From Caulobacter sp. (GTDB taxonomy: Bacteria; Pseudomonadota; Alphaproteobacteria; Caulobacterales; Caulobacteraceae): DNA of 64,000 bases. Shown piece after piece: positions 24,931-48,267 of the stretch (position 1 is the first letter of the stretch; every line of letters begins with the position of its first letter). The notes under the pieces were generated by a model. The model saw only the letters and a program-made list of their open reading frames with translations, made no database searches and had not been told where the DNA came from. Both the position numbers and the translations under genes were made by a program. The stretch covers positions 62,001-126,000 of the forward strand of contig WGLL01000005.1 of assembly GCA_016125585.1 (NCBI GenBank), given 5' to 3'.

Positions 24931-24960
24931 TTGTCAGCCCCTAATAGCTTACATTATAAG
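24931..24960 (+). promoter_or_regulatory. Promoter of the DUF2855/carotenoid oxygenase operon
   Basis: -35 TTGTCA (24931-24936) with -10 TTATAA (24954-24959, 17-bp spacer) or TATAAG one base on. The -10 element lies inside the first TetR-type palindrome. The start codon follows at 24987. Confidence 0.5.
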
Positions 24961-24973
24961 TTTACGTCGTAAA
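24948..24973. promoter_or_regulatory. Twin palindromes, candidate TetR operator
   Basis: Two 13-bp inverted repeats abut: CTTACATTATAAG (24948-24960) and TTTACGTCGTAAA (24961-24973, perfect around a central T). They lie in the AT-rich divergent region between the TetR gene and its putative target. Confidence 0.6.
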
Positions 24974-24986
24974 TTAAAGGTGGCCG

Positions 24987-26048: not shown

Positions 26049-26075
26049 AACAGCAACACTGACGGGAGAGCGACC

Positions 26076-27483: not shown

Positions 27484-27511
27484 TTGCTCCGTGCACCCGT
27501 GGGTCTAGGAT
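27484..27511 (+). promoter_or_regulatory. Putative promoter of the left aryl-polyene arm
   Basis: -35 TTGCTC (27484-27489), 16-bp spacer and -10 TAGGAT (27506-27511), about 66 bp before the first gene. It lies in the only sizeable gap between the carotenoid oxygenase gene and the cluster. The match is moderate. Confidence 0.4.
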
Positions 27512-27577
27512 AGGAAGGCTCGGCGCCAAGGGGGCAGGTCGGGCGGCCGGACGCGTTCGAGTACGGCGGAGTGCAGA

Positions 27578-28243
27578 GTGGGGCCGATGGGTATCGCCAA
27601 TCTGGCGGTGAGGGACTGGGCCGGCGTTGTCGTCAACGCCGCCGAGGAGGCGGAGTCCGTGCGAGGCAAGGCGGCGGCCAGCGCCGCAGTGCCCATGGGC
27701 CTTCGTCGCAGAATGCCCAAGTTTACCCTCGCGGCGGTTCGCTGCGCCATCGGCGTGGCCGGTCCGGGGTGCGAGCTGGTCTTCGCCTCGCGATTCGGCG
27801 ACATCACCACAGCGCTGGGGCTGTCCGAGGCCATCGTCGCCGCCGACCTGCTGTCGCCGGCCGCCTTTTCCGCCTGCGTGCACAACGCCGCCCCGGGGCT
27901 GGCGGCCCAGATCCTCGGCGAGAAGTCGAGCCATACGGCTGTCTCGGCCGGCGCCCGCAGCCTCGACGCCGGGCTGCTGGAGGCCTGGCTGCGGCTGGCC
28001 ACCGGCGAGGCCGACGAGGTCGTGGTTCTGTTCGCCGAGCAGCCGATGCCGGATATCTACGCCGAATTCGACCATGAGCCGGGGGTTCCCCTCGTGGCCC
28101 TGGCGCTGCGGTTGGGTCTCGACGGCGCGGGAGACGCCGCGGTCGTCGGCGGCGGTCGGGCCGGCGCCCTGGCGCTGATGGACCAGCTTGAGGCCGGAGC
28201 GACGCGGGTCGCCGTCTCGACGGACTGTCAGGCTGCGGCCTGA
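27578..28243 (+). CDS. Beta-ketoacyl synthase-like protein / chain-length factor (ApeC-like)
   Basis: 221 aa from GTG 27578 (ATG 27587 is an alternative). It corresponds to the short Ketoacyl-synt_2 type: only the N-terminal thiolase-like half is present (RRRMPKFTLAAVRCAIGV, FASRFGDITTALGLSEAI, SACVHNAAPGLAAQIL). In the position of the KS nucleophile there is HTAVSAGARSL with no Cys, so it is expected to be a non-condensing chain-length factor partner of the cluster's true ketosynthases. It is first in the left arm, overlapping the acyltransferase start (TGATG). Confidence 0.8.
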   Translation: MGPMGIANLAVRDWAGVVVNAAEEAESVRGKAAASAAVPMGLRRRMPKFTLAAVRCAIGVAGPGCELVFASRFGDITTALGLSEAIVAADLLSPAAFSACVHNAAPGLAAQILGEKSSHTAVSAGARSLDAGLLEAWLRLATGEADEVVVLFAEQPMPDIYAEFDHEPGVPLVALALRLGLDGAGDAAVVGGGRAGALALMDQLEAGATRVAVSTDCQAAA

Positions 28244-29022
28244 TGGGCGGGTTCCTGGGCGCCCTGGATCGCGGCTGGCGACTGATCGCCACCGGACTGT
28301 CCTTTATCCTGTTCGGGCTGGGCGGCCTGGCCATGGCTCTGGCCATTTTTCCCTTCCTGAATGTGGGCTTCCACGCCCGCGACCTTCGCCAGCGGATCGC
28401 CCAGCGGGTCGTGCAGCGCACCTGGCGCCTCTACATCCGCGTCATGAGGCTGCTCGGGGTTCTGACCTATGAGTGCAGCGGCGAGCCCCTGTTGAAGCGC
28501 GATCACGGGGTGATGGTCGTCGCCAACCACCCCTCGCTGCTCGACATCGTCTTTCTGATGGCCTTCATGCAGCGGACCAAATGTGTGGTGAAGGCCGGCG
28601 TCTGGAACAATCCCTTCATGGCCGGAGTGGTGCGCGCCGCCGGCTACATTCCCAACCTCGGCGACCCCGAGCGGCTGCTGGACGATTGCGCCGAGGCGCT
28701 GCGCGAGGGCAACAATGTGGTGATCTTCCCCGAGGGATCCCGCACCGTTCCGGGCCAGCCGCGCAAGATGCAGCGGGGATTCGCCTATGCCGCGCTCAAG
28801 GCCGGCGCCCCGGTGCGGCTGGCCACGATCACGGTTTCGCCGCCGACCTTGCTCAAGGGCGAGCCTTGGTATCGTATTCCCCCGCGCCGACCGCACTGGG
28901 ACATTCGCATCCACGAACGGATTGAAGTTTTCGACATGGCGGGGCAAGACCCGCTGCCTGTCGCCGCGCGTCATCTGGTCACGCGTGTCGATGAGATGAT
29001 GGAAGAGAAGCTGCACGCATGA
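28243..29022 (+). CDS. 1-acyl-glycerol-phosphate acyltransferase-like protein (ApeD-like)
   Basis: 259 aa, PlsC superfamily. The catalytic H-x4-D is ANHPSLLD (His96, Asp101), and the second acceptor motif is FPEGSRT. One N-terminal membrane helix (FILFGLGGLAMALAIFPFL) anchors it on the inner membrane. In aryl-polyene clusters this enzyme is thought to transfer the polyene acyl chain, or the fatty acid, to a glycerol or sugar lipid anchor. It overlaps the first ACP gene by 4 bp. Confidence 0.87.
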   Translation: MGGFLGALDRGWRLIATGLSFILFGLGGLAMALAIFPFLNVGFHARDLRQRIAQRVVQRTWRLYIRVMRLLGVLTYECSGEPLLKRDHGVMVVANHPSLLDIVFLMAFMQRTKCVVKAGVWNNPFMAGVVRAAGYIPNLGDPERLLDDCAEALREGNNVVIFPEGSRTVPGQPRKMQRGFAYAALKAGAPVRLATITVSPPTLLKGEPWYRIPPRRPHWDIRIHERIEVFDMAGQDPLPVAARHLVTRVDEMMEEKLHA

Positions 29023-29276
29023 CCGAGCTCGAAAACGAGATCAAGGCGATGATCATCGACGTCCTCAACCTCGAGGATGTCACGCCGGACGACATTGATC
29101 CGCAGGAGGATCTTTTCGGGGATTCCGGTCTGTCCCTGGATTCCATCGATGCTCTGGAGATTGGCGTCGGGGTCCAGAAGAAGTACGGCATCAAGATCAA
29201 CGCCGAGGACAAGAGCACACGGGCGCACTTCCAGTCCGTCCGCTCCCTTGCCGAATTCGTCGCCGCGCAACGCTGA
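29019..29276 (+). CDS. Acyl carrier protein 1 (ApeE-like)
   Basis: 85 aa, acidic four-helix carrier. The phosphopantetheine attachment motif is LSLDSIDALE, with Ser42 as the modified residue. VNLED-type helix 1 and the AEDKSTRAHFQSV helix 3 region are typical of the first aryl-polyene ACP, which differs from the second one here. It carries the growing polyene or the starter aryl group. It would be activated by the phosphopantetheinyl transferase at 47746-48267. Confidence 0.92.
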   Translation: MTELENEIKAMIIDVLNLEDVTPDDIDPQEDLFGDSGLSLDSIDALEIGVGVQKKYGIKINAEDKSTRAHFQSVRSLAEFVAAQR

Positions 29277-29287
29277 CGGGGGAAAAC

Positions 29288-29536
29288 ATGGACAGACAGG
29301 CCGTCTACAAGGAAATTTCCGACTTTCTGGTCGACACCTTCGAGGTGCCGGAATCGGAGCTGTCGCCCGACGCCGATCTGGTCGAGAATCTCGGGCTCGA
29401 CAGCATCGATGCGGTCGACCTGATGGTGAAGCTGCAGGAAATCACCGGCAAGAAGGTGACGCCCGAACAGTTCAAGTCGGTGCGCACCATCAATGACGTG
29501 CTCGACGTCGTGGACCAGCTCTCCGTCGATGGCTGA
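29288..29536 (+). CDS. Acyl carrier protein 2 (ApeF-like)
   Basis: 82 aa carrier protein with the canonical LGLDSIDAVDL motif (Ser39 as the attachment site) and the helix 3 motif TPEQFKSVRTINDVLD. Two distinct ACPs side by side are a hallmark of aryl-polyene clusters. It begins 11 bp after ACP1, with a good ribosome-binding site (GACGGGGGAA). Its 3' end overlaps the next gene by 8 bp. Confidence 0.92.
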   Translation: MDRQAVYKEISDFLVDTFEVPESELSPDADLVENLGLDSIDAVDLMVKLQEITGKKVTPEQFKSVRTINDVLDVVDQLSVDG

Positions 29537-30131
29537 TCCACCGCCGGCGGGTCAGCCGGCGCGGCGCAAGATCAATCCGTCGGCCATCGCCCTGGCGGTG
29601 ATCACCGTCCTCTACCCCTTCATCGCCCTGATCGCGGTTCGGACGGTTGGTCCCGCGATCGTGGTCGGGGCGCTTTGCGTCCTGCTGCTTGGGCGGACGC
29701 TGTTCGGCGTCGGCAGGGGCATTCCGCTTGGCGTGGCGCTGGCCCCTCTGGCCGTAGCCCTGCTGATGGGGCTGATGATGCTGTGGGACGCGCACCGCGC
29801 CGTGCGGTTCTATCCGGTGTTCATGAGCGGCGCGATGCTCGCCGCCTTCGCCGCCAGCCTGGTCAAGGGGCCCAGCATGATCGAACGGCTGGCGCGGATC
29901 GCCGAGCCGGACATGCCGCCGTCGGGTGTGGCCTATACCCGCAAGGTCACCATGGTCTGGTGTCTGTTCCTGGCCCTGAACGGCCTGGTCGCCCTGTGGA
30001 CCGCGCTCTACGCCAGCCTCGAGGTCTGGACCGCCTACAACGGCTTCATCTCCTATGTCCTGATGGGCGCGCTGCTGGGCGGCGAGTTCCTGGTGCGCCG
30101 CATCGTCAGGGGGCGGGAAGGCCAGGCATGA
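29529..30131 (+). CDS. Polytopic membrane protein of aryl-polyene clusters (COG4648-like)
   Basis: 200 aa from ATG 29529, overlapping ACP2 by 8 bp. About five to six hydrophobic segments are visible, for example AIALAVITVLYPFIALIAV and LGVALAPLAVALLMGLMML, with the conserved FYPVFMSGAMLAAFAASL block and VAYTRKVTMVWCLFLALNG. The family is regularly found between the ACPs and the AMP-ligase in such clusters, but no biochemical role is established. Positioning the synthesis complex at the inner membrane is a reasonable guess. Confidence 0.8.
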   Translation: MADPPPAGQPARRKINPSAIALAVITVLYPFIALIAVRTVGPAIVVGALCVLLLGRTLFGVGRGIPLGVALAPLAVALLMGLMMLWDAHRAVRFYPVFMSGAMLAAFAASLVKGPSMIERLARIAEPDMPPSGVAYTRKVTMVWCLFLALNGLVALWTALYASLEVWTAYNGFISYVLMGALLGGEFLVRRIVRGREGQA

Positions 30132-31768
30132 GTGGCTTCCTCTCCGCCCTGCTGACAGCACCGGCCGACCGCCAGGTGTTCACGGCCCCGGCGCCGGTCA
30201 CCGCCGGCCAGATCCGCGCCACGGCGGCCGCGCTTGCTCCGAGGCTGGCGGGCCAGGCGCCGCTGTTTGTTTACACCGCCTCGGCCGCGCTGTTCACGGC
30301 GGCGCTGCTGGCGGCGGCGATAGCCCGGCGGCCGCTGGCCCTGCCGGCCCATACCCAGGACGCCTACCTGGCCGAGGTCGGCGGCGCCGGCGCGGTGCTG
30401 CTGGATGATGCGACGCTGTCGTTGTCGGCGGAGTGCGACGCCCCCGCCGGCCGCCTCACCGGCGCGGCAGACGACATCGACCTGACCTTCTTCACCTCCG
30501 GCTCGACCGGCGCGCCCAAGCGGATCGAGCGGCGGCTTTCCCAGCTTGAGACCGAGAGTCGAGCCCTGGAGGCGACCTTTGGCGATCAAACCGGTCCGGT
30601 CCAGGCGACCGTGTCGCACCAGCATATCTATGGCCTGATCTACCGCATCGTCTGGCCGGTGATGACCGGCCGCCCCAGCGCCGACATGGCCGCCGAATAC
30701 TGGGAACAGCTGGACGGACGCCTCGGGCCGGACGTGACCCTGATCTCCAGTCCGGCCCACCTGACCCGGCTGCCGCCGGTCATGGACCTGTCGTCGCAGG
30801 CGCCGGGTCTGGTCTTTTCGTCCGGCCAGCTCCTGCCCACCCCGGCCGCCCTGGCCTGCGCGGCGGTGTTCGGCCGACCGGTCACCGAGGTGCTTGGCAG
30901 CACCGAAACCGGCGGCGTGGCCTGGCGTCGTCAGGCGCTGGGCGACGAGCCCTGGACGCCCTTTTCAGTGGTGCGCGTCGGCCAGGATGAGGCGGGCGGA
31001 CTGACCGTCGCCACCCCCTATCTCGACGGCGAGGATCCGTTCCCGATGGGCGACCGTGTCGAGCCCCTGGCGGACGGCCGCTTTCGCCTTCTGGGCCGGG
31101 CCGACCGGATGGAAAAGATCGACGGCAAGCGGGTCTCCCTGACCCGGGTCGAGGAGGCGCTGACAGCTCTGCCCCAGATCGCCGAGGCCGCCGCCCTGAC
31201 CCTGCCCGATCGCCAGGGGGCGCTGGCCGCCGTCGTTGAATTGACGGCCGAGGGCGTCGCGGCGCTGGAAGAGAAGGGCGCTTTTCGCTTCGGGCGCCTT
31301 CTTCGCGCCGCTCTGGCTGATAGACTGGAGCCCATCGAACGACCCAAGCACTGGCGCTTTGTGCCCCGCATGCCGGTCGACGCACAGGGAAAACGCCGCA
31401 TCAGCGATCTTCGCGCCAGGTTTGCCGATACGCCTCGCGTGCCGCCCTATGAGGTGGTGTCCCGCGAGGGCGACACCGCACGCATGAAGGTCTCCCTGCC
31501 GCCGGACCTGATCTACTTCCAGGGCCATTTTCCGGACGAGGCGATCCTGCCGGGAATCTCCCAAGTGCATATGGCGGTGCTGATCGGCGAGCAAACCCTG
31601 GGCTTCACCCCGGCCTCGTCCGAGCTGAACCGGGTCAAGTTCAAGGACATCGTCCGTCCCGGCGAGGTGCTCGACCTGACCCTGACCGCCGATCGCGATC
31701 GCGGCCGCCTCACCTTCCAGTGGCTGCGCGCCAACGGCAACGAGGCGTCCGCCGGGGTGATCGGCTAG
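30128..31768 (+). CDS. AMP-dependent acyl-ACP ligase fused to a FabZ-like dehydratase (ApeH-ApeI fusion)
   Basis: 546 aa with two domains. Residues about 1-425 are an ANL-superfamily adenylation domain: P-loop DLTFFTSGSTGAPKRI (about 118-133), VLGSTETGG and the GRADRMEKIDGKRVSL hinge. Residues about 434-546 form a hotdog dehydratase-like domain with LIYFQGHFPDEAILPG, the ApeI/FabZ motif containing the active-site His. The ligase would activate a cinnamate- or coumarate-type starter onto an ACP, and the dehydratase would remove water in each elongation cycle. In E. coli clusters these are separate genes. It is the last gene of the left arm. Confidence 0.88.
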   Translation: MSGFLSALLTAPADRQVFTAPAPVTAGQIRATAAALAPRLAGQAPLFVYTASAALFTAALLAAAIARRPLALPAHTQDAYLAEVGGAGAVLLDDATLSLSAECDAPAGRLTGAADDIDLTFFTSGSTGAPKRIERRLSQLETESRALEATFGDQTGPVQATVSHQHIYGLIYRIVWPVMTGRPSADMAAEYWEQLDGRLGPDVTLISSPAHLTRLPPVMDLSSQAPGLVFSSGQLLPTPAALACAAVFGRPVTEVLGSTETGGVAWRRQALGDEPWTPFSVVRVGQDEAGGLTVATPYLDGEDPFPMGDRVEPLADGRFRLLGRADRMEKIDGKRVSLTRVEEALTALPQIAEAAALTLPDRQGALAAVVELTAEGVAALEEKGAFRFGRLLRAALADRLEPIERPKHWRFVPRMPVDAQGKRRISDLRARFADTPRVPPYEVVSREGDTARMKVSLPPDLIYFQGHFPDEAILPGISQVHMAVLIGEQTLGFTPASSELNRVKFKDIVRPGEVLDLTLTADRDRGRLTFQWLRANGNEASAGVIG

Positions 31769-31790
31769 GGAGGAGTCCTCAGCGGTTGGT

Positions 31791-32984
31791 TCAGGTCAAC
31801 TCCTCGGAGGAATAGCCCAGGATCTCGCGGGCGATGATCAGGCGCTGGATCTGGCCGGTGCCTTCGTAAATGTCGCTGATGCGGCCATCCCGCATGAATT
31901 TCTCGACCAGATGGTCGTGGCTGACCGACATTCCGCCCAGCACCTCCATGGCGCCTTGCGTCACCGTTCGGCAGACGTCCCCGCCCTTGGCCTTGCAGAC
32001 CGAGCTTTCCAGATTGTTGGGTTTCCGCTTGTCGCTCAGCCAGGCGGCGTGCAGCACCGTCAGGGCGGCGGCCTCGGTATCGGCCTCCAGTTCGATCAGC
32101 TTCTGCTGCGTGGCGCTGCGCTGGGGGAAGCTCTGGCTCCAGTCGACGCTGACCCCCTGTTCGGCCAGGGCGTCGACGGCGAAGTTCAGGGCGCCGCGGG
32201 CCTTGGCCACCCCGCCGGAAGCCACCGCCGGACGGGTCATGTTGAAGGTCTTCATCACCCCGCGATAGCTGGCCGATCCGCCCCCCTTGGGCACGGTCTC
32301 GTCGCCGCCCAGCAGGGCGTCGCGCGGAATGCGGCAGTCGCGGAAGGCGTAGGCGGCGGTGTCGCTGGCCCGGATGCCCAGCTTCTTCTCCTGACGCACC
32401 AGCTCGAACCCGGGCGCGTCCTTGAGCACCAGGAAGGACTTGATGCCGGCCCGGCCCGCCGACTTGTCGATGGTCGCCCAGACGATGGCGCCGTCGGCCT
32501 TGACCCCGTCGGTGACGAAGATCTTGTCGCCGTTCAGCACCCATTCGTCACCGTCCAGCCGGGCGGTGGTCTGGATGGCCTTGGTGTCGGAGCCGACGCC
32601 GGGTTCGGTGATCGACATGGCCAGGAACAGATCGCCCCATTTGGCCTTCTGCTCGGGCGTGCCGGCCGATTGCAGCGCGGCGTTGCCGAGGCCGCTGGCC
32701 CTCGCCGAGGGCATCGCCAGGCCCAGACCCCGCACCACGCCGCTGGCCGAGCCCCGGGCGATGCTGACGGCCATCATGAAGGTCATCATCGGGGTGTCGT
32801 CGGGTTGGCGCTGGCCAAACATCGGAAACACCTCCTCGAACCCGCGCTCGCCCTCGAGCCGCGCCGGCGGCGTCTCGTGCTCATGGTCCTCGTAGTAGCG
32901 GGTGTGGGCGGTCGTCGAATTGCCGACCTCGACGACCTTGTCGAGGATCTGCTGGTCGATGTCGGAGAAGCGGAAGTCAGCCAT
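31791..32984 (-). CDS. Acyl-CoA dehydrogenase, catalytic-type subunit
   Basis: 397 aa from ATG 32984. Typical ACAD blocks are present: AMSITEPGVGSDTKAIQT (FAD contact), VLNGDKIFVTDG, and near the C-terminus SDIYEGTGQIQRLIIAREIL, in which the Glu of YEGT is the usual catalytic base. An N-terminal TRYYEDHEHETPP segment replaces the common start. It oxidises an acyl-CoA to the 2-enoyl-CoA with FAD. It lies 11 bp downstream of a second ACAD in the same operon, suggesting a two-subunit enzyme. Confidence 0.9.
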   Translation of the reverse strand: MADFRFSDIDQQILDKVVEVGNSTTAHTRYYEDHEHETPPARLEGERGFEEVFPMFGQRQPDDTPMMTFMMAVSIARGSASGVVRGLGLAMPSARASGLGNAALQSAGTPEQKAKWGDLFLAMSITEPGVGSDTKAIQTTARLDGDEWVLNGDKIFVTDGVKADGAIVWATIDKSAGRAGIKSFLVLKDAPGFELVRQEKKLGIRASDTAAYAFRDCRIPRDALLGGDETVPKGGGSASYRGVMKTFNMTRPAVASGGVAKARGALNFAVDALAEQGVSVDWSQSFPQRSATQQKLIELEADTEAAALTVLHAAWLSDKRKPNNLESSVCKAKGGDVCRTVTQGAMEVLGGMSVSHDHLVEKFMRDGRISDIYEGTGQIQRLIIAREILGYSSEELT

Positions 32985-32995
32985 GTCTGTCTCTC

Positions 32996-34108
32996 CTAGA
33001 CCGAGACCGGACCGTCGAGGACGGTCAGGGTGCGGGCGTTGCGCAGCCACATTTCCAGCGGCAGGTCGCGAATGAAGCCGTGGCCGCCGAAGATCTGCAG
33101 GGCGTCGTCGGCGATCTTGATCGATTTGCGGCGGACATAATCCTGGGCCAGCACACAGGCCTTGGCCGCGCCCGGGTCATTGTGCTCGAGCAGGCTGGCG
33201 GCCTTCCAGACCATCCAGCGCATGGCCTCGCATTCGATGTGCATGTCGGCCAGCATGAAGGCGATCGACTGCTTTTTGGCGATCGGCTCGCCGAACGCGA
33301 CCCGTTCCTTGGCGTAGGGAATGGCGTAGTCGGTGGCCTGGCGCGACAGGCCCACGGCCATGGCGCAGGCCCCGATCCGGGCCTGGTTGATCAGCCGTTG
33401 GGCATCGATGCCGGCGTCGCCGCCGAGCCGCGCAGAGCCGGGCAGATCAACCTCGCTCAGGGTCACTTTGGCCTGAGGCAGGGGCTTGAGGCCCATGCTG
33501 CCGCTTTCCGCCGCCACGGTCACGCCGGCCGTGTCGCGGGGCACGATGAAGGCCGAGACCGCCTCGAGTCCGGCCGCGCCGTCCTCGGCCGCCAGCACCA
33601 GGAAGTGCCCGGCCCGGTCGCCCAGGGGAACCATGCGCTTCTCGCCGTTCAGCACCCAGCCGTTGCCCTTGCGGGCGGCGGTGGTGCGCTGGGCCTCGGC
33701 GGCGAATCCGAACTGCCCCTCCTGCAGCGCCAGGCTGGCGGCCGCGGGCGTCTCGCCCGTGAAGCGGGGCAGATGCTCGGCCTTCTGCTCGTCGGTGCCA
33801 AAGTCGATCAGGGCGGAAACGAACTGGCCCGGGGCCATGATCGCCGCCCCCTGGCTGGCGCAACCGCCGCCGAGCGCCTCCAGCACCACGGCATTGGTCA
33901 GGCAGGAGCGCTCGCCCCCGCCGCCGCCGTATTCTTCCGGGATGGCGGCGGCGATCAGGCCGAAGTCCCAGCCCTGGCGGATGATGTCCCCGGGAACCTC
34001 TCCCGCCTCGTCGATGGCCCGCGCGCCCGGCGCCAGGACCTCGGCGGCGAAAGCCTGCAGGCTCTCGCGGATCATGGTCTGCTCGTCGTTGAGCTCAAAA
34101 TCGATCAT
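32996..34108 (-). CDS. Acyl-CoA dehydrogenase paralogue with altered catalytic region
   Basis: 370 aa from ATG 34108. N-terminal ELNDEQTMIRESLQAFAAE and the middle ERVAFGEPIAKKQSIAFMLA, then IFGGHGFIRDLP, are standard. The protein ends LTVLDGPVSV, where family members normally continue with a Glu-Gly-Thr motif and some 20 more residues. The catalytic Glu position is therefore Asp or absent and the C-terminus is short. Partnering with the adjacent active ACAD, as in heteromeric alpha2beta2 ACADs, would explain this (inference). Confidence 0.85.
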   Translation of the reverse strand: MIDFELNDEQTMIRESLQAFAAEVLAPGARAIDEAGEVPGDIIRQGWDFGLIAAAIPEEYGGGGGERSCLTNAVVLEALGGGCASQGAAIMAPGQFVSALIDFGTDEQKAEHLPRFTGETPAAASLALQEGQFGFAAEAQRTTAARKGNGWVLNGEKRMVPLGDRAGHFLVLAAEDGAAGLEAVSAFIVPRDTAGVTVAAESGSMGLKPLPQAKVTLSEVDLPGSARLGGDAGIDAQRLINQARIGACAMAVGLSRQATDYAIPYAKERVAFGEPIAKKQSIAFMLADMHIECEAMRWMVWKAASLLEHNDPGAAKACVLAQDYVRRKSIKIADDALQIFGGHGFIRDLPLEMWLRNARTLTVLDGPVSV

Positions 34109-34244
34109 GCGTCTCTCCCTGATCTCAGGGATGACAGACGACCCGAACGGAAGGCAAGGGCTGTGCCTGAGAAATGGACGTTCTTGACTGGTCGGGCCGG
34201 CCACACAATGTTAAATTAGAGACTACGGAAAGGGAGCACTTATT

Positions 34245-34469
34245 GTGGCAAAACCGGGCCAGCACGTTGTCCCTAACGGCGGCAAATGGAGCGTTCGGAA
34301 GGCTGGCGCGGCTCGCGCGTCCGGCACATTCGGAACCCAGCGGGAAGCCATCGAACGCGCTCGCGATATCGCCCAAAGTCAGAAGACCGAGTTGTTCATT
34401 CACGGCCGTGATGGCCGCATCCGCGAACGTAATTCTTACGGCGATGATCCGCTTCCGCCGAAAGGCTGA
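34245..34469 (+). CDS. DUF2188 domain-containing small protein
   Basis: 74 aa, GTG start after an AGGGAG ribosome-binding site. Sequence features PNGGKWSVRKAGAARA, then TQREAIERARDIAQSQKTEL and FIHGRDGRIRERNSYG match DUF2188, a small beta-alpha-beta domain found in many mobile and chromosomal contexts. It is 2 bp upstream of the 209-aa gene and clearly forms an operon with it. Base composition is lower in GC than the surrounding cluster. A promoter-like TTGACT lies at about 34183-34188. Confidence 0.8.
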   Translation: MAKPGQHVVPNGGKWSVRKAGAARASGTFGTQREAIERARDIAQSQKTELFIHGRDGRIRERNSYGDDPLPPKG

Positions 34470-34471
34470 CG

Positions 34472-35101: not shown

Positions 35102-35189
35102 CCGCGCAGGTTAAGGTGCGAGTTTAGGATATCCGCGCAGTATCTGACCAAGGCGCTGGCGTTATTCTTCGACCCGCCGGACGAGAGCC

Positions 35190-37599: not shown

Positions 37600-37619
37600 G
37601 GCGTTATCCTGGGCCCGGC

Positions 37620-40635: not shown

Positions 40636-42877
40636 GTCGTCTTCCAAACCACGCAGCTACAAAGGAAAATCCGTAGGAGATGGCGAGGCCGGCCGCAACG
40701 GCTATGCCGAAGGCTCGCACAGGATAGGTCGAACTGAGGCTCAGAAGCCCCATCGAGAGGATCGCCGTCAGGGCGGTGATCAGGATCGGCAGACCGGCCA
40801 GGGGCGAGCGCTGTCCCAGGGCCGCCTCGTACCGCAGGATCGAGTAGTCGGCCCCGGTGCCGACCACGACAAAGGCCCCCATCATCGAAAAGAAGCTGAG
40901 CGGGGTGCCGAGCACCGAGGCGGCGATGATGCCGCCGACCACGCCCAGTCCCGGCGCCACAAGAATGCCAAGGGCCGTGGCCCGCCGGTAGATGAGCAGC
41001 AGCATGATCCCGACCGCGACGAAGGCGGCCAGGGCGGCCATGGCGGCCAGACGGCGGTAGTCGGCGAAGGCGCCGCTGTAGGCGTTGGCGGGATCGACAT
41101 AGGTCGCATCCCGCAGTCTGGCGGTGGCGGCGATCACCGCCGGGGCCGAGGCCTCGGGAACCGGCGCGATCAGATAATGGCGGTCGCCGCTGGTTCCGGC
41201 CAGGCCGGCGATCCAGCCGGGCAGGGGAACGCCTTCGGGGCGGGCGAAGGGCTGGAAGTCCGCCTCGGCCACGCCCAGCAGCGCGGCCCGTTCGGCGAGA
41301 TGGGGACCGATCAGCTCGTCCCGGATTCGCGTCTCGGTCCGGGCGCGGACGTCCGCCGGAGGATCGAAACGACCGGGGGCCAGGATGCCGGCGCGGGCCG
41401 GCGCCGGCAGGGCGGCCAGGACAGCGGTCTCGCGCGCCTTGGCGGCTTCGGCGGTCGGGCCCCAGCTGAGCAGGAAGTTGGGCGAGAAGCCGACGCCGGA
41501 AGCCTCCCGCACCGCCGCCTCCTCGGCGACCAGCACCGGCGAGCGCGGCTGGAATTTCCGGACATCGTCCAGGGTGGCGAAATGACCCAGGGTGAAGACC
41601 CCGCCGGCCACGAACAGCACCCCCACCACCGCCAGGGCCGGCCAGGTCCAGCGCAGGCGCTCGCGGCGGGCCTCGAGCCCGGCCCACAGCGCCGCCAGAC
41701 GCGCCTTGCGGCCCTCGGCCACGGCGCGATCGAACAGGGGAACCAGGGTGAAGGCGCAGGCCCAGGCCGAGATCAGCCCTCCGACGGCGAAGACCGCCAT
41801 CTGGCTGAAGATCGGCACGCCAAACAGCGCCAGACAGGAAAAGCCCATGGCCGAGGTGACCATGCAGACGGTCACCGGCCGGAAGATCATCGCCCGCCGC
41901 TCGGTCTGGTCGCCCCAATGGGTCAGCGGTCCGGTGGACAGGTAGTAGATGGCGTAGTCGGCGGTGACGCCGACAAAGGCCGAGCCAAACACGAAGGTCA
42001 GCATGTGCACGGTGGGAAACACCGCCAGCACCGCCGCCAGCGATCCCAGATAACCGGCGGCGACCACCAGCAGGGTGATCGGCAGGGCCCGGGGCCGCCG
42101 GAAGACCACCATCAACAGCAGGATGATGCCCAGGGTCGAGGCGACGCCGACGGTGGAGATGTCCTTCTTGGCGTGGCGGGCGCCATCCTCGGCGTGGAAG
42201 GCCGCTCCGGCCCGGGCCAGGGTCACCCCCTGATCCCGGTGAGCCTTCACCCAGCCGTCGACGACGTCGGTGAAGGTCTTCTGGGTATCCAGCCTGAAGG
42301 CCGAGCCGGTCAGCCGCCCGCTGATCAGGATCTCGCCGTCTCCGGCCATCGCTCCGCCAAACCCGCTGGCCGGCAGCAGGCAGCCGCTGAGCCGCAGGGT
42401 CAGCAGGAAGGGGTCGCGCTGCAGCATCTCGCCGCTCAGCGGCGCCACGGGTGAGAAGATCTGCACCAGGGACGACTGGACCACGCCCTCCGCCGCCGCG
42501 GCGTCGAAGTCATCCGGCGAGGGCTCGCAGCCCAGCTGGTTGCGGTTGGCGAACAGCCAGCGGGCGGTTTCCTCGCCATCGACGGCGGCGTCGACGAAGA
42601 CCCCGCTGTCCTTGAGGCGTTTCGACAGGTCGTCGGCGGCCGCCCGCGCCCCCTCGCCGTTCGGGGCCGAAACCAGCATCGCCACCCGGCTGGAGGCGGC
42701 GACGCCGGCCTGGACCATGGCTTCGCGCACCGGCGGGCGCAGCGCCTGGGCCGGCAACAGGCTCTGGATATCGGTATCCAGCGCCCCGCCGGACATCAGG
42801 CGAAAGGCGATATAGCCGGCGGCGAGGACGCAACCGACCAGATACAGACCCAGAAGTCCCAGACGCCCCCCTGTCAC
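40619..42877 (-). CDS. MMPL/RND-family exporter (ApeN-like)
   Basis: 752 aa from GTG 42877. Two repeats of one helix, a periplasmic domain and five helices are visible. First-half helices include TVGVASTLGIILLLMVVF and LVVAAGYLGSLAAVLAVF, and the FVGVTADYAIYYLS block carries the conserved Asp of helix 4. The second repeat ends VVVGTGADYSILRYEAA. It is the expected proton-driven inner-membrane exporter of polyene lipid. It overlaps the halogenase-like gene by 17 bp and follows the LolA-like gene by 6 bp. Confidence 0.9.
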   Translation of the reverse strand: MTGGRLGLLGLYLVGCVLAAGYIAFRLMSGGALDTDIQSLLPAQALRPPVREAMVQAGVAASSRVAMLVSAPNGEGARAAADDLSKRLKDSGVFVDAAVDGEETARWLFANRNQLGCEPSPDDFDAAAAEGVVQSSLVQIFSPVAPLSGEMLQRDPFLLTLRLSGCLLPASGFGGAMAGDGEILISGRLTGSAFRLDTQKTFTDVVDGWVKAHRDQGVTLARAGAAFHAEDGARHAKKDISTVGVASTLGIILLLMVVFRRPRALPITLLVVAAGYLGSLAAVLAVFPTVHMLTFVFGSAFVGVTADYAIYYLSTGPLTHWGDQTERRAMIFRPVTVCMVTSAMGFSCLALFGVPIFSQMAVFAVGGLISAWACAFTLVPLFDRAVAEGRKARLAALWAGLEARRERLRWTWPALAVVGVLFVAGGVFTLGHFATLDDVRKFQPRSPVLVAEEAAVREASGVGFSPNFLLSWGPTAEAAKARETAVLAALPAPARAGILAPGRFDPPADVRARTETRIRDELIGPHLAERAALLGVAEADFQPFARPEGVPLPGWIAGLAGTSGDRHYLIAPVPEASAPAVIAATARLRDATYVDPANAYSGAFADYRRLAAMAALAAFVAVGIMLLLIYRRATALGILVAPGLGVVGGIIAASVLGTPLSFFSMMGAFVVVGTGADYSILRYEAALGQRSPLAGLPILITALTAILSMGLLSLSSTYPVRAFGIAVAAGLAISYGFSFVAAWFGRRHVREA

Positions 42878-42883
42878 TCCTGG

Positions 42884-43471
42884 CTATCCCCCGCGCACAG
42901 CCGACATCTCGATGGCGATGCTGTCGCCATTGGCCTGGCTGATGTTGACCGCCTCGGCGCGATTGCAGCCGCTGATCTCGATGGTCGACAGGAACCGGCC
43001 CAGGCTGGCGTCCTTGGGCTTCAGCGCCAGTTTCCAGGGTGCCCCGGGGGCCGTCTGGCCGCCGCTGATCAGGTAGTAGCGCCGCAGGGCGCCGTAGTCG
43101 CCGGTGAGGATCTCGAACAGACCCGAGCTGCGCAGGAAGGGATCGGCCGAGGCTGGACCCACGGCCTGGGCCTTGCCGCCCTGCACCGACTGGGTGATGC
43201 GCCCGGGGGTGATGGTCAGGCGCACATCGACCGGCTTGATCACCCGCCAGTCGACACGGCCGGGGGTCACCTCGGCGATCCCGGTCGAGATCAGCGGCGT
43301 CTTCATGTTGGCCAGGCGCCGGGTCTGTTTGAAATCGAACTGACCGGTCTGGGCGCGCAGGGCGAAAGGATCGGCGCATTTGGCCAGGGCCGCGCCGGGC
43401 ATGCTCAGCCCGACGAGGCCGGCGGCAGCCAGGGCGAGAGCTTTTCGCGCAGGATCGGCGGGGATTCCCAA
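42884..43471 (-). CDS. LolA-like periplasmic carrier (ApeM-like)
   Basis: 195 aa with a signal peptide (ALALAAAGLVGLSMPGAALA). The core FDFKQTRRLANMKTPLIS, then VDWRVIKPVDVRLTITPG is the LolA-type beta-barrel start, and CADPFAL...SGCNRAEA supplies one cysteine at each end. It likely shuttles the aryl-polyene lipid across the periplasm. Its start overlaps the thioesterase gene by 67 bp in a different frame, so the signal peptide is encoded within the thioesterase C-terminus. Confidence 0.85.
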   Translation of the reverse strand: MGIPADPARKALALAAAGLVGLSMPGAALAKCADPFALRAQTGQFDFKQTRRLANMKTPLISTGIAEVTPGRVDWRVIKPVDVRLTITPGRITQSVQGGKAQAVGPASADPFLRSSGLFEILTGDYGALRRYYLISGGQTAPGAPWKLALKPKDASLGRFLSTIEISGCNRAEAVNISQANGDSIAIEMSAVRGG

Positions 43472-43851
43472 AGCATCGTCTCCGTCTTGATATCGACCGC
43501 CACCTGCACGCTGGTGCAGCGGGTCAGTCGTTGTCCCGTCTCCGGGTCGCGGAATTCATAGTCTATTTTGAGGCGGTTCTCCCATTCGACGATCCCCGCA
43601 TGCACCTCGAAGGTCTGGTGCAGGCGTAGGGGCCGGGCGTATCGGAACCGCATGTCGATGATCGGCCAGCCGTAGCCGGAGGCGATCATCTCGTCGTAGC
43701 CGTAGTTGATCTTGTCCAGGATGGCGACGCGCCCCAGCTCCATGAAGCGGGGATAGTTGCCGTGCCAGACGATGTTCATCGGATCGAGGTCGTAGAAGTG
43801 GGGTCTGGTCTGGACCATCGCCGAGACGATCGCCTTCATCGGTCGCCGCAT
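43405..43851 (-). CDS. Acyl-CoA/ACP thioesterase, 4HBT hotdog fold (ApeL-like)
   Basis: 148 aa from ATG 43851 (TGATG overlap with the ammonia-lyase stop). The 4-hydroxybenzoyl-CoA-thioesterase signature DLDPMNIVWHGNYPRFMELG is complete, including the catalytic Asp. It would hydrolyse or edit acyl-ACP or -CoA intermediates. It ends 67 bp inside the LolA-like gene. Confidence 0.88.
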   Translation of the reverse strand: MRRPMKAIVSAMVQTRPHFYDLDPMNIVWHGNYPRFMELGRVAILDKINYGYDEMIASGYGWPIIDMRFRYARPLRLHQTFEVHAGIVEWENRLKIDYEFRDPETGQRLTRCTSVQVAVDIKTETMLWESPPILREKLSPWLPPASSG

Positions 43852-45428
43852 CAGTCGGCTCCGAGCCAGTCCAGGCCCCTGCCGTCGGCCAGCGCCTCGC
43901 ACAGGGCCCGCAGCGCCTTGTCGAGCGGGGCGTCCTCGTCGATGAACGGCGCCAGGTCTCCGGCCGCGGCCAGGAAGCCGCCCACCCGCGTCCCCAGTTC
44001 GGCGTCCTTCAGCCCCCCGTCGCGCAGGCGCAATCGCACCGCCTGGACACAGGCGATGATGTGGGCGGCCGCCACCTGTTCGGTCAGTTCCACCACCCGC
44101 AGGGCGTCCCGCGCGGCGATCGTCCCCATCGAGACCTTGTCCTGGTTGTGACATTCGGTGCTGCGCGAAAAGACGCTGGCCGGCATGGTCAGCTTCAGGG
44201 CCTCGGCGGTCCAGGCCGAGACGCCGATCTGAACGGCCTTGAGGCCGTGATTGATCGGCGCGCGCTCGCCGGTGGCGCCCGACAGGTTGGAGGGCAGGCC
44301 GTTGTTGTAGCGGGTGTCGACCAGCAGGGCGAGCTGGCGGTCCATCAGGTCCGCGAGGTTGGCCACCAAGGTCTTCAGACTGTCCATGACAAAGCAGATG
44401 TGCCCGCCATAGAAGTGACCGCCATGCAGGGTGCGGCCATCCTCCGGGTCGAACAGCGGGTTGTCGTTGGCGCTGTTGATCTCGGTCTCGATGATCTGGC
44501 GGAACCCGCCCAGCATGTCTTCCAGCACCCCGATGACGTGCGGCGCGCAGCGAATCGAATAGCGGTCCTGCAGACGGGTCGGTGTGTGCAGCCGGGCGAA
44601 CTCGGCCAGATCGGCGCGGATCCGGGCGCCGACGCGCATCTGCCCGGGGTGCGGCTTGGCGCTCATCAGGCGCTCGTCGAAGTGGGCCGGATTGCCCAGC
44701 AGGGCCAGGCTGGCCATGGCGGTCAGGCGGCTGGTCAGGCGCGACAGCTGCTCGGCCCGGTGGAAGGCGAGGGCGGCCAGGCCGGTCATCACCGCGGTGC
44801 CGTTCATCACCGCCAGCCCTTCCTTGGGCTTGAGGGTGATGGCGCTGAGGCCGGTCCGGGCGAAAGCCTCGGCCGAACTCATCACCTGGCCCTGGAACAG
44901 CACGTCCCGCTCCCCGGCCAGGGCCCCGGCGATGTAGGACAGGGGCGTCAGGTCGCCGCTGGCGCCGACCGAGCCTTCGGCCGGGATCAGCGGCAGGATG
45001 TCCAGCCGCAGCATGTCGCCCAGCAGCCGCACCAGGTCGAGGCTGACCCCGGACCAGCCCCGCATCAGGGTCACCAGCCGCACGGCCAACACCGCCCGGG
45101 TCTCGTGAGGCTCCAGGATCCGGCCCAGGCCGCAGCCGTGGAAACGGGTCAGATGCAGCGGCAACTCGGTCACCAGGCCGGTGGGCACGCCGCGGGTGAC
45201 GCTGTCGCCATAGCCGGTGGTGACGCCGTAGATGACGCCCTCGCGCGCCAGGGTGGCCTCGACATGGCCGGCCGAGCGGGAGATGGCGGCCAGAGCCGCT
45301 TCATCGTCGGTCAGCCTCAGAGCCACGCGGCCGGTCGACAGGGCCCAGACATCCTCGATTGTCAGGTCTGCCCCGCCAATGGCGAGACCCTGGCCGTATC
45401 GGCCGCTTGTATCGTTCACGCCGTCCAT
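43851..45428 (-). CDS. Aromatic amino acid ammonia-lyase (ApeK/TAL-like)
   Basis: 525 aa from ATG 45428, which has an AAGGGG Shine-Dalgarno. The MIO cofactor triad Ala-Ser-Gly is residues 156-158 (GSVGASGDL); catalytic Tyr67 is in VIYGVTTGYG and SGATGERAP lies further on. The specificity dyad that is SH in histidine ammonia-lyases and HL in tyrosine ammonia-lyases reads Phe96-His97 in RFHGCGLG, an intermediate pattern. It deaminates tyrosine (most likely), phenylalanine or histidine to the cinnamate-type starter of the polyene. Confidence 0.88.
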   Translation of the reverse strand: MDGVNDTSGRYGQGLAIGGADLTIEDVWALSTGRVALRLTDDEAALAAISRSAGHVEATLAREGVIYGVTTGYGDSVTRGVPTGLVTELPLHLTRFHGCGLGRILEPHETRAVLAVRLVTLMRGWSGVSLDLVRLLGDMLRLDILPLIPAEGSVGASGDLTPLSYIAGALAGERDVLFQGQVMSSAEAFARTGLSAITLKPKEGLAVMNGTAVMTGLAALAFHRAEQLSRLTSRLTAMASLALLGNPAHFDERLMSAKPHPGQMRVGARIRADLAEFARLHTPTRLQDRYSIRCAPHVIGVLEDMLGGFRQIIETEINSANDNPLFDPEDGRTLHGGHFYGGHICFVMDSLKTLVANLADLMDRQLALLVDTRYNNGLPSNLSGATGERAPINHGLKAVQIGVSAWTAEALKLTMPASVFSRSTECHNQDKVSMGTIAARDALRVVELTEQVAAAHIIACVQAVRLRLRDGGLKDAELGTRVGGFLAAAGDLAPFIDEDAPLDKALRALCEALADGRGLDWLGAD

Positions 45429-45437
45429 CCCCACCCC

Positions 45438-46352
45438 TTACAGACGCCAGAAATCATAAAAGTTGAACCATTGGAACGGGTTGGCTAGCGCCTGCTGCTC
45501 GAGTTCGGCGGCAAATCGGCTGATTGAGGCTTTTACGGCGGCTTCCCGCGTCTTGCGCGGAAAATCCAGACGATCGCTGAATTTCTTGAATTGCACCCTG
45601 TAGCGGCCCTGCCGACGGACCGCGTAGAGGCTGTAGATCGGGCATTTCAGCGCCGAAGCCAGGACGAACGGGCCGATCGGAAATGGCGCGTCCTCCCCCA
45701 GGAACGGGACCCAGACCGAAGGGCTCTTGCCCCCAGGCGCCACCCGGTCGGCCAGGATCACCGCCCAGTCGCCGTTCTCCAGGGCCGAGGACAGGATCAT
45801 CGCCGCCCCGAGTCCCAGGTCGCTGACCTCGATGATGCGGACCGCCGAGCGCGGGGCCATCCGGGCCATCAGATCGGCGAAGCGGGCCGCATTGGCGCTG
45901 TGGGCCAGGACGCTGACGCCGCGACGATCCTCAAGGGTGGCGATGGCCCGCATCACTTCCGGCACGCCCAGGTGGGCCGAGACCACCACCGCGCCCCGGG
46001 GGTCGGCCCGGGCGGCGGCGAATTCCGGGTCGTCCAGGCCATCGACCTGTTCGGGACCGATGTCCCCCAGCCAGGCCGAGAACCGGTCCAGCGCCCCGCC
46101 GGCGAAGGCGAGGGCGTGTTTCAGTCCGGTGAGGTGGTTGATCTCGCCGGTATCCGCCCCGTGCTCCCGGGCCCGGCGCAGCCATTCCAGCGAGGCCCGT
46201 CGCTGACGTCCGCCGGTGATGTAGAAGTAGACCACCAGCGGCGCGATCAGGGCCATCGACACGGTGCGGCCCAGCAGGCGGTAGACCATGGCGACAATCC
46301 ACAGTCCCGCGAACGCCCCCCGTTCTCCTGTCGACGCCCAGGTCGCCGCCAT
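45438..46352 (-). CDS. LpxL/HtrB-type acyltransferase of the cluster (C-terminal ApeJ-like)
   Basis: 304 aa from ATG 46352, after a TAAGGCG ribosome-binding site. AVVVSAHLGVPEVMRA matches the HxxxE/D motif of LPLAT acyltransferases (LpxL type). An N-terminal membrane segment (VSMALIAPLVVYFYITGG) anchors it, and the C-terminus FQWFNFYDFW is typical. In many aryl-polyene clusters this domain is fused behind a GT2 glycosyltransferase; here that GT2 is a separate gene on the other strand (47034-47783). First gene of the right arm. Confidence 0.85.
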   Translation of the reverse strand: MAATWASTGERGAFAGLWIVAMVYRLLGRTVSMALIAPLVVYFYITGGRQRRASLEWLRRAREHGADTGEINHLTGLKHALAFAGGALDRFSAWLGDIGPEQVDGLDDPEFAAARADPRGAVVVSAHLGVPEVMRAIATLEDRRGVSVLAHSANAARFADLMARMAPRSAVRIIEVSDLGLGAAMILSSALENGDWAVILADRVAPGGKSPSVWVPFLGEDAPFPIGPFVLASALKCPIYSLYAVRRQGRYRVQFKKFSDRLDFPRKTREAAVKASISRFAAELEQQALANPFQWFNFYDFWRL

Positions 46353-46561
46353 ACGCCTTACCCGCCCCCGTGGTTCCGTTCCGCTCCCGGATGTCCAGAA
46401 CCGTGCAACTTCGTCTGGACCGGGACGATTCAGCCCGATCCGGGGATGATCTAGCGCGTCGCCCGGCGCCGCGTCCACGTTGAGTCGTCGTTCCCGGCGT
46501 GTATTGTCGTCATGTGCGGTTCGCCGGACGCGGACCAGTTCAAGACTGTCGGGATCAGCTC

Positions 46562-47008
46562 ATGAAGACCTTTGCCGCCCTCCTCCTCCCCCTCGCCCTT
46601 GGCCTCGCCGCCGCCCCCGCCGTCCAGGCCGCCGGCCGCGACGATGTGATCAACTTTCCGGTCGCCGATGTGCTGAACAATCCGGAATACGCCGCAAAGC
46701 TGCCGGCCGGCGTGAAATACTACTTCGGCGACTCCCGGGCGGCCGTCAGCCGCAAGCTTGGCGAGACCCGCACCAACAAGAAGACCAACGGCTTCAACAA
46801 GACCGACAAGGCGGCCTGCGAATGGGCCATGCTCAGCGCTCTCATCGCGCTGGGCGAGGACGCCAAGGGCCGGGGCGGCAACGCCGTCGTCGGCATCAAG
46901 TCCAACTACAAGGGCAACCTGACCTCCAGCAACGACACCTACGCCTGCGGCGCGGGCAACCTGATGGTCGGCGTCGCCCTGGTCGGCGAAGTGGCTGTGG
47001 TTCGCTAA
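46562..47008 (+). CDS. Secreted YbjQ-like/excinuclease-ATPase-subunit-like small protein
   Basis: 148 aa from ATG 46562 with a signal peptide (LLLPLALGLAAAPAVQA). The mature part includes CEWAMLSALIALGEDAKGRG, GNAVVGIKSNYKGNLT and the VGVALVGEVAVV end, recalling the heavy-metal-binding DUF74/YbjQ fold with two Cys. Similar proteins are often annotated as excinuclease ATPase subunit without evidence. It is divergent from the right arm and co-directional with the GT2 gene 25 bp downstream. Confidence 0.7.
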   Translation: MKTFAALLLPLALGLAAAPAVQAAGRDDVINFPVADVLNNPEYAAKLPAGVKYYFGDSRAAVSRKLGETRTNKKTNGFNKTDKAACEWAMLSALIALGEDAKGRGGNAVVGIKSNYKGNLTSSNDTYACGAGNLMVGVALVGEVAVVR

Positions 47009-47033
47009 CGGCGACACCTGCTAGATCACCGCC

Positions 47034-47783
47034 ATGAGTTTTCGTCCATGCGCGGTGATTCCCGCCTTCAATCACTACCATCGGCTCGGCCCGGTGCTCG
47101 CCGGTCTGCGGGCGCTGGACCTGCCGGTGTTCATCATCGACGACGGCAACGTGGAGCCGGTGCGGTCCGGGCTGGCGGCGTTTCATGCGCCTGCGGCCGG
47201 GGTCACCGTCATTCGCCGGCCGAGCAACGGCGGCAAGGGCGCGGCGGTCATGGACGGCTTTCGCCACGCCGCCGAGGCCGGTTTCACCCACGCCCTGCAG
47301 ATCGACGCCGATGGTCAGCATCAGCCGGAACAGGCGGCGAAGTTCCTGGCGCTGGGCCAGGCCAATCCGGCGGCGGTGATCGCCGGGGCGGCGGTCTATG
47401 ACGACAGCGTCCCGAAGGCGCGCAAGATCGGCCGCTATGTCACCCATTTCTGGGTCTGGGTGGAGACCGCCTCCCTCGACATCCAGGACAGCCTCTGCGG
47501 CTTTCGCCTCTATCCGCTGGCCGCGACCCTGAAGATGCTGAAGTCGGAGCATATCGGAACCCGGATGCAGTTCGACACCGAGATCCTGGTGCAATTGCAC
47601 TGGCGCCGCGTGCCGGTGATCAGCGTGCCGGTCCAGGTCGTCTACCCGCCCGACAACACCTCCAACTTCGCCATGCTGGCCGACAATGTGCGGATCAGCC
47701 TGATGCATCTGGGGCTGGTGCTGCAGACGCCCTTCCGCCTGCCGCTCAAGCTGCTGCGCAAGGCGCCGCCCAGACAAGGCTGA
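47034..47783 (+). CDS. GT2 family glycosyltransferase of the aryl-polyene cluster (N-terminal ApeJ-like)
   Basis: 249 aa. CAVIPAFNHYHRLGPVL begins the GT-A fold, NGGKGAAVMDGFRHA and the metal-binding DADGQHQP (DxD) are intact, and a C-terminal hydrophobic tail is present. It matches the glycosyltransferase half of ApeJ-type GT2-acyltransferase fusions. It could add a sugar to the polyene lipid. Its 3' end overlaps the phosphopantetheinyl transferase gene, on the opposite strand, by 38 bp. Confidence 0.87.
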   Translation: MSFRPCAVIPAFNHYHRLGPVLAGLRALDLPVFIIDDGNVEPVRSGLAAFHAPAAGVTVIRRPSNGGKGAAVMDGFRHAAEAGFTHALQIDADGQHQPEQAAKFLALGQANPAAVIAGAAVYDDSVPKARKIGRYVTHFWVWVETASLDIQDSLCGFRLYPLAATLKMLKSEHIGTRMQFDTEILVQLHWRRVPVISVPVQVVYPPDNTSNFAMLADNVRISLMHLGLVLQTPFRLPLKLLRKAPPRQG

Positions 47784-48267
47784 GCACGAAGCCGGGTTCG
47801 GGAAGGGTCTGCAGCAGCCAGCCTTCTCCCACCGCCACGGGGTCGGCCGACCGGTTGGCGCCGGCGATGCGGATCAGGTCCGGAGACGGGTCGGCCCCGA
47901 AGGCCTTGAACCAGGCCTCTCCGAAGGTCCAGCCGCGAAAGAACTGTTCGGGGGTTAGGCCGGCGGCCGGGGCGCCCAGGAAGTGTTCGGCGATCTCCGC
48001 CATGCGCCGCGCCGGGTCGATCCATTCGACATCGACGCCCAGCCGCGTCACCGGCGGGCGGGCCACCGCCGCCGCGACCAGGCCGCGACCGTGGCTACGG
48101 CTGAACAGGGGCGCAGTGGGATCCAGCTCGGCCTGCAGGGCCCGGGCGGCGGCGCTTTCCAACGCCTTGCCCGGTCGCTGACCGGGGGTGACGTCGGCCA
48201 GTCGCCGCGTGGCGTAGCGGATCGCCTCAGGCGTCACGCCGGGGCGACCCGGCGGGCGATCCGGCAT
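47746..48267 (-). CDS. 4'-phosphopantetheinyl transferase (Sfp/AcpT-type)
   Basis: 173 aa (ATG 48267; GTG 48237 also possible). RLGVDVEWIDPARR is the magnesium-binding GVDxE motif, and FFRGWTFGEAWFKAFG corresponds to the W-x-x-KEA-x-x-K motif, but with Gly in place of the first Lys. It would attach phosphopantetheine to the two cluster ACPs. It follows secA on the same strand by 19 bp. The C-terminus overlaps the GT2 gene convergently. Confidence 0.78.
   Translation of the reverse strand: MPDRPPGRPGVTPEAIRYATRRLADVTPGQRPGKALESAAARALQAELDPTAPLFSRSHGRGLVAAAVARPPVTRLGVDVEWIDPARRMAEIAEHFLGAPAAGLTPEQFFRGWTFGEAWFKAFGADPSPDLIRIAGANRSADPVAVGEGWLLQTLPEPGFVLSLVWAAPCAAA

Follow-up and report, generated by a model that had tools for sequence, protein, structure and literature searches.

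The closest described relatives of the locus reported here are aryl polyene (APE) gene clusters, of which that of Escherichia coli CFT073 (apeA to apeR) is tabulated in the order C-D-E-F-G-H-I and J-K-L-M-N-O-P-Q-R (PMC8253772, Table 1). In the clusters drawn in PMC3691225, halogenase genes flank a conserved ketosynthase (KS) pair, except in L. enzymogenes and Xylella (Figure 5 legend). Here, we report an APE cluster of Caulobacter sp., located on contig WGLL01000005.1 in a 64,000-nucleotide stretch (62,001 to 126,000; "the window," whose positions are used as coordinates throughout). The cluster spans 27578 to 48267 as two arms facing each other and is very probably a complete-looking APE cluster of a subtype marked by an ammonia lyase and a halogenase-like flavoprotein; its layout is a lineage-specific form of a known APE cluster type. 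No publication on this cluster was found among the literature matches listed.

Open reading frames (ORFs) between 24 and 51 kb were scanned with Pfam, and some also with NCBIfam. The APE assignment is firm because of the structure matches of the KS, the chain-length factor (CLF), and ApeP, together with matches to PF22817, PF22818, and NF006618 above their cutoffs. A fatty acid origin of the KS, raised in a preliminary description made from the letters of this stretch, is not what the searches (not a tree) point to: ApeO matched the solved chains 6qsp_A (282 bits) and 7f28_B (270 bits), versus at most 165 bits for FabF-type chains. The only solved relatives of the ApeC-like protein were 7f28_A and 6qsp_B, the partner chains of ApeO's two best matches, and the sole solved match of ApeP was 6qsr_B; we take the 6qsp, 7f28, and 6qsr entries to be APE-type systems. 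The ApeP and ApeI-type dehydratases scored 50.6 bits with PF22817 (cutoff, 27) and 29 bits with PF22818 (cutoff, 28.5). Two acyl carrier proteins (ACPs), an AMP ligase, a ketoreductase, and a second KS were all detected by Pfam, and a transport set is present (RND-type ApeM, LolA-like ApeL with a weak profile match, and DUF3261 protein ApeN). The preliminary description had read the gene content correctly, all families that it named being found by Pfam or NCBIfam, the LolA-like one weakly (E = 0.014). Gene families, gene order, the KS-CLF match, and conservation are direct observations.

The plus arm (27578 to 31768) reads ApeC-D-E-F-G-HI, and the minus arm (46478 to 35190) reads LpxL-like, ammonia lyase, ApeK-L-M, halogenase-like, ApeN-O-P-Q-R. 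The gene order had been called broken, which holds for the opposing arms; inside each arm, the order tabulated for E. coli is kept, apart from the lyase after J, the flavoprotein after M, and the fusion of H with I. Judging by order, ApeJ would be represented by two genes on opposite strands, the LpxL-like (minus) and the GT2 (plus) gene; a 571-amino-acid ApeJ-type gene has GT2 as its best match. The genes of the cluster are as follows.

27578 to 28243, plus: ApeC-like CLF (Ketoacyl-synt_2; PF13723, E = 2e-35; structure matches 7f28_A and 6qsp_B only)
28243 to 29022, plus: ApeD-like PlsC acyltransferase (PF01553)
29019 to 29276, plus: ApeE-like ACP (PF00550)
29288 to 29536, plus: ApeF-like ACP (PF00550)
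29529 to 30131, plus: ApeG-like membrane protein (without a Pfam match; copies 45 to 95% identical stand at the same place in related loci)
30128 to 31768, plus: ApeH ligase fused to an ApeI-type dehydratase (PF00501, PF13193, PF22818)
35190 to 36407, minus: ApeR-like KS (PF00109, PF02801; order and relatives)
36407 to 37246 (ORF bounds; start may be internal), minus: ApeQ-like ketoreductase (PF13561)
37144 to 37599, minus: ApeP dehydratase (PF22817, E = 2e-13; structure match 6qsr_B only)
37620 to 38807, minus: ApeO-like KS (NF006618 above cutoff; 6qsp_A, 282 bits)
38804 to 39400, minus: ApeN, DUF3261 (PF11659)
39397 to 40647, minus: halogenase-like flavoprotein (PF04820, E = 2e-22; K76, W219-x-W-x-I-P, F302xxPxxSxG)
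40619 to 42877, minus: ApeM, MMPL/RND transporter (PF03176)
42884 to 43471 (ORF bounds), minus: ApeL, LolA-like (LolA_3, E = 0.014, weak; position and relatives)
43414 to 43848, minus: ApeK thioesterase, 4HBT (PF13279)
43851 to 45434, minus: aromatic amino acid ammonia lyase (PF00221, E = 4e-154; ASG triad, selectivity pair F-H)
45438 to 46478, minus: LpxL-like acyltransferase, second half of ApeJ by order (PF03279)
46562 to 47008, plus: small secreted protein with a YbjQ-like predicted fold, candidate APE-associated family (profile, predicted structure, co-occurrence)
47034 to 47783, plus: GT2 glycosyltransferase, first half of ApeJ by order (PF00535)
47746 to 48267, minus: phosphopantetheinyl transferase-like (PF01648, E = 6e-5; 23.5 bits, just under the cutoff of 25)

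Three samples were compared: 75 genomes of the same genus (window included), 347 genomes of the phylum (at least 95% complete), and 80 named loci, which are the best 80 of at least 530 confirmed flavoprotein relatives, with flanks of at most 10 kb per side (one, L023, is a same-genus contig already counted). At most 11 candidates per genome were scored with A2 (the YbjQ-like profile described below), 5 with A1, and 10 with PF22817. ApeP was found in 75 of the 347 phylum genomes, 70 above and 5 below the Pfam cutoff.

Several points weigh against reading the locus as a complete APE cluster. ApeA and ApeB were not found at the locus, and none of the ORFs scanned between 24 and 51 kb belongs to a methyltransferase family (the search did not extend to the rest of the genome), in agreement with the O-methyltransferase noted as missing in the preliminary description; we take the ApeB methyltransferase to be an accessory and not a defining APE feature. 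Profile support for ApeL is weak, and the phosphopantetheinyl transferase-like ORF falls just below its Pfam cutoff. Within the genus, ApeP occurs in only 6 of the 75 genomes, and the selectivity pair of the lyase does not begin with His, as that of tyrosine ammonia lyases (TALs) is reported to do.

The following account of all reactions, of the starter, and of the product and where it is located is modeled on published APE work. The ammonia lyase would convert tyrosine (or phenylalanine) to a starter of the cinnamic acid type, which the ApeH domain would load onto an ACP activated by the neighboring phosphopantetheinyl transferase-like protein. ApeR and ApeO:ApeC would lengthen it with malonyl units, and ApeQ, ApeP, and the ApeI domain would yield the polyene. 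The flavoprotein would modify the aryl head, its motifs making halogenation slightly likelier than hydroxylation. The thioesterase and acyltransferases may then transfer the polyene acid to a lipid, which ApeM, ApeL, and ApeN would take to the outer membrane as a pigment lipid, with the secreted YbjQ-like protein as a proposed periplasmic or outer membrane accessory.

The halogenase-like gene had been regarded as an addition to the cluster, a view that the relatives do not bear out. Among the 347 phylum genomes, 47 carry the flavoprotein (E ≤ 1e-60) and 46 of these carry ApeP, at a distance of 2.1 to 3.7 kb in 40 and 15 to 16 kb in 6; 29 of the 75 ApeP genomes are without it. In the sole carrier without ApeP (G434), a relative of ApeQ adjoins the flavoprotein. 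In all six same-genus APE loci, the flavoprotein sits between ApeM and ApeN. The 80 named loci hold 81 placements of it, of which 71 have ApeM on one side and ApeN or ApeO on the other; 8 of the remaining 10 are without a detected neighbor on one or both sides, and 2 lie elsewhere in the cluster. At least two of ApeM to ApeR stand near it in 73 of the 80 named loci, and an ammonia lyase does so in 52. It is rare in the taxonomic order to which the window belongs (3 of 120 genomes). The halogenase-like gene is thus ordinary for this subtype and occupies a fixed place; as it and the converging arms are common to relatives, the novelty claimed earlier for this cluster weakens.

The flavoprotein may be a working flavin-dependent halogenase that chlorinates or brominates the aryl head, a tentative reading. 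We take GxGxxG, the catalytic lysine, WxWxIP, and FxxPxxSxG to be flavin-dependent halogenase motifs; these, with K76 as the lysine, do not vary in any of the 86 sequences aligned (picked by similarity to the window protein, with one genome counted twice), and solved halogenases (8zop, ChlB4, PltA, and CmlS) are among its relatives. The motifs also persist at greater distance. In the family of G395 (Xanthomonadaceae as judged from DNA likeness to Pseudoxanthomonas), at least 103 of 139 genomes have a flavoprotein match; among the matches listed, 16 are of the close type, with 48 to 54% identity and one of them split into two pieces, and the rest are paralogues of about 26 to 36%. One such paralogue (about 32%, with a PF04820 match) lies in a xanthomonadin-like cluster of G736, of the same family. 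When the best matches of 31 Xanthomonadaceae-type loci, the G736 paralogue among them, were aligned with the window protein, every one of the 32 rows retained the WxWxIP and FxxPxxSxG residues; the lysine was kept in 31 rows and missing only from a broken piece of G800. Xanthomonadins are brominated and the Lysobacter pigment, from a cluster without the gene, is not, according to PMC3691225. No function was transferred from xanthomonadin, the paralogue being too distant (about 25 to 33% identity).

Against halogenation, the best solved relative is 3nix (324 bits), an uncharacterized "flavoprotein/dehydrogenase"; nonhalogenating relatives such as QhpG match too; and the copy in Pseudoalteromonas sp. 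CF6-2, the named parallel cluster with annotation, is called an "NAD(P)/FAD-dependent oxidoreductase." Arcuflavin is likewise reported as nonbrominated in spite of a halogenase gene in its cluster (PMC3949708), a precedent that serves equally the proposal of a hydroxylase or another type of monooxygenase, with the aryl head or the polyene as its target and with inherited halogenase motifs. The superfamily also holds hydroxylases and reductases, yet the invariance of the motifs in all 86 sequences argues for kept halogenase chemistry, and we regard the monooxygenase proposal as conceivable without favoring it. A halogenated pigment is compatible with the motifs and, in our view, somewhat less likely than not. 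This gene, common in APE clusters, is one concrete knowledge gap.

The starter enzyme had been described as TAL-like. It is a predicted aromatic ammonia lyase of the 4-methylideneimidazole-5-one (MIO) type: the MIO-forming ASG triad is present in 57 of 57 lyase ORFs of at least 400 amino acids (window and fetched loci). The specific label is not secured, because the selectivity pair (located by eye with a lyase motif and the HutH of this genome as guides) is Phe-His, not His-first. Phe-His occurs in 47 of the 57 ORFs, window included, and Tyr-His in 10. The first residue is given as His in TALs and as Phe or His in phenylalanine ammonia lyases (PMC3992019). The best NCBIfam match, the bagremycin/ferroverdin TALs, reached 414 bits, below its cutoff of 1,000. 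A halogenated product would lead one to expect a phenol and hence tyrosine.

Between the lyase arm and the GT2 gene lies ORF 46499 to 47008 (plus), whose likely start at 46562 gives a protein of 148 amino acids with a signal peptide recognized by eye. It has no significant Pfam or NCBIfam match; PF01906 (YbjQ_1) stays below its gathering cutoff, matching 6 of 19 family members at E ≤ 0.1 (best E, 0.012) and not the window protein itself. The predicted structure (predicted local distance difference test score, 88) has YbjQ/DUF74 entries as top matches (3qkb, 1vr4, and 1y2i; probability, 1.00), with weak E values (0.003 to 0.01) and template modeling scores (0.37 to 0.46, query length); RcsF ranked lower and was not convincing. 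Two cysteines are invariant in 25 of 25 sequences, and three Pasteurellaceae copies look like lipoproteins.

The YbjQ-like protein follows APE genes closely. Within the genus, its carriers are precisely the 6 of 75 genomes that have ApeP; the other 69 gave no match, and each of the six has it next to APE genes (G148 has two more matches elsewhere). Copies are single in the window and G158 and form arrays in G057 (six), G150 (four), and G166 (six) (L012, L014, and L016). Among the 80 named loci, the profile matched in 24, of which 18 have the gene downstream of ApeR, and tblastn additionally flagged L034 and L036. In the phylum, 31 of 347 genomes carry it and 30 of these have ApeP (hypergeometric P = 1.2e-21, which is only descriptive because species are not independent); the distance to ApeP is at most 4 kb in 22, at most 16 kb in 25, and 35 kb in one, and the remaining 4 have it at a distant site or on a separate contig. 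Of the APE genomes, 27 of the 46 that have the flavoprotein carry the YbjQ-like gene, versus 3 of the 29 in which no flavoprotein was found (Fisher P = 2.8e-5). The sole exception to co-occurrence, G348 (L149), has no ApeP found and no APE gene in 20 kb. Two matches (30% and 49% identity) lie by APE genes on a Caballeronia insecticola replicon (L158), where the flavoprotein gene stands beyond them and not between ApeM and ApeO. Fourteen plasmid-collection records hold a relative, with APE genes adjoining it in three of three inspected; four of the 14 annotate it as "excinuclease" or similar, which we take as a misannotation.

These data would fit an unrecognized APE component that goes chiefly with the halogenase-like subtype, acts on the pigment lipid or senses its insertion in the periplasm or at the outer membrane, and has expanded into tandem arrays in this lineage; we consider the case for and against this evenly balanced. 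On the other side stand the absence of a match in 45 of 75 ApeP genomes (19 of the 46 with flavoprotein), so that the protein is not essential to APE synthesis generally; the use of APE-linked copies to build profile A2, which may miss divergent unlinked relatives; and the small number of carriers not linked to ApeP (5 with ApeP and 1 without; P = 0.002), one of which, G289, has a weak match 35 kb from ApeP. Identity with an E. coli-type ApeA was rejected: the profile (E up to 100) had no match among the ORFs of one strand of L155, the APE locus of a genome without an A2 match. This conserved secreted protein is a second concrete knowledge gap in APE clusters.

The converging arms, presented earlier as a peculiarity, are real and not distinctive: they occur in all four same-genus genomes with one contig across both arms (window, G057, G150, and G158), while in G148 and G166 the arms sit on separate contigs. 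The modules also converge on Terricaulis contig L026 and run in the same direction in G110 and L024; they have therefore been shuffled among relatives, and the split is not unique. TetR-DUF2855-RPE65-ApeC-D-E-F-G-HI forms one block in six of six same-genus loci, window included, and SecA borders the other arm in the five loci readable there (not G148).

The upstream part of that block, TetR-DUF2855-RPE65 (24307 to 27464), lies directly next to ApeC in those six same-genus loci. This adjacency could mean that the RPE65-type carotenoid oxygenase (26076 to 27464), DUF2855, and TetR form part of the pathway, with the oxygenase cleaving or otherwise altering the polyene. We consider this very unlikely, as 35 of the 75 same-genus genomes have RPE65 relatives (E ≤ 1e-60) and 61 have DUF2855, the two genes are, by eye, no more than 3 kb apart in 21 genomes with no ApeP match, and RPE65 was seen in none of the 80 named loci within their flanks. 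On these genus and named-locus counts, RPE65 and DUF2855 were rejected as pathway genes and are likely mere neighbors.

The junction between the arms is variable cargo. The unrelated island noted earlier proved to consist of two acyl-CoA dehydrogenases (31791 to 34204, ORF bounds) and a separate insert, variable among relatives, as follows.

31791 to 33050, minus: acyl-CoA dehydrogenase, junction cargo (in G150 and G158; not found in G057)
32996 to 34204 (ORF bounds), minus: acyl-CoA dehydrogenase, junction cargo (Pfam and relatives)
34161 to 35185, no strand: 1,025-bp insert with DUF2188 (34245 to 34469, plus) and an ORF without a family (34472 to 35101, plus)

The start of the second dehydrogenase is probably internal to its ORF, because the insert begins at 34161. 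Both dehydrogenases stand at the junction in the window, G150, and G158, which might suggest a role in the APE pathway; they were not found in 36 kb of G057 nor in the flanks of the 80 named loci, on which grounds they were rejected as pathway genes, such a role being very improbable. The G057 junction instead holds LysE-like, histidine kinase-like, and KaiC-like genes (named by eye), the first two also being seen in the G150 junction. The histidine kinase-like gene lies at 20.7 to 23.9 kb in L012 and L013 (G057, with the KaiC-like gene beside it), a similar one lies at 20.1 to 21.8 kb in L014 and L015 (G150), and none was seen in the window junction.

Among the junctions read, the 1,025-bp insert occurs in the window only; in G158, its flanks meet with 3 bp between them. 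The GC content of 34205 to 35189 is 0.559 versus 0.685 for the window. DUF2188 matches PDC-S16 of PADLOC (E = 3e-36), and the second ORF, TIR-like by eye, has relatives in 4 of 240 class genomes (window included) and none in viral contigs. Among four other loci, the two genes are adjacent in L160 and L161, while L162 and L163 have the ORF only. From these matches, the insert may be a mobile two-gene cassette of a defense type.

Set beside known systems, the locus shares with E. coli CFT073 the arm order, the KS-CLF, two ACPs, and LolA, RND, and DUF3261 transport genes (PMC8253772). The E. coli cluster differs in being one-directional and in having ApeA and ApeB, and its table lists neither an ammonia lyase nor a halogenase; here, H and I are fused and ApeJ corresponds to two genes on opposite strands. 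Xanthomonadin clusters (PMC3691225 and the G736 locus) share an APE-type KS, ketoreductase, dehydratase, ligase, MMPL, LolA, and a halogenase-like gene; the G736 locus differs in that its flavoproteins share only about 25 to 33% identity and a 30-kb stretch yielded no ammonia lyase. PMC3949708 assigns the xanthomonadin and arcuflavin starter to a chorismate-utilizing enzyme. Flexirubin of Chitinophaga pinensis is likewise described as an aryl polyene with a starter derived by an ammonia lyase; its FlxA was shown to be a TAL, and TALs are His-first (PMC3992019), versus Phe in the window lyase. The APE clusters of Pseudomonas, Shewanella, Pseudoxanthomonas, and Pseudoalteromonas have the same gene content, with the flavoprotein between ApeM and ApeN/O and, in the 24 named loci counted above, a YbjQ-like protein; they are mostly one-directional, whereas in the lineage of the window the arms converge and some relatives carry the YbjQ-like gene in tandem arrays.

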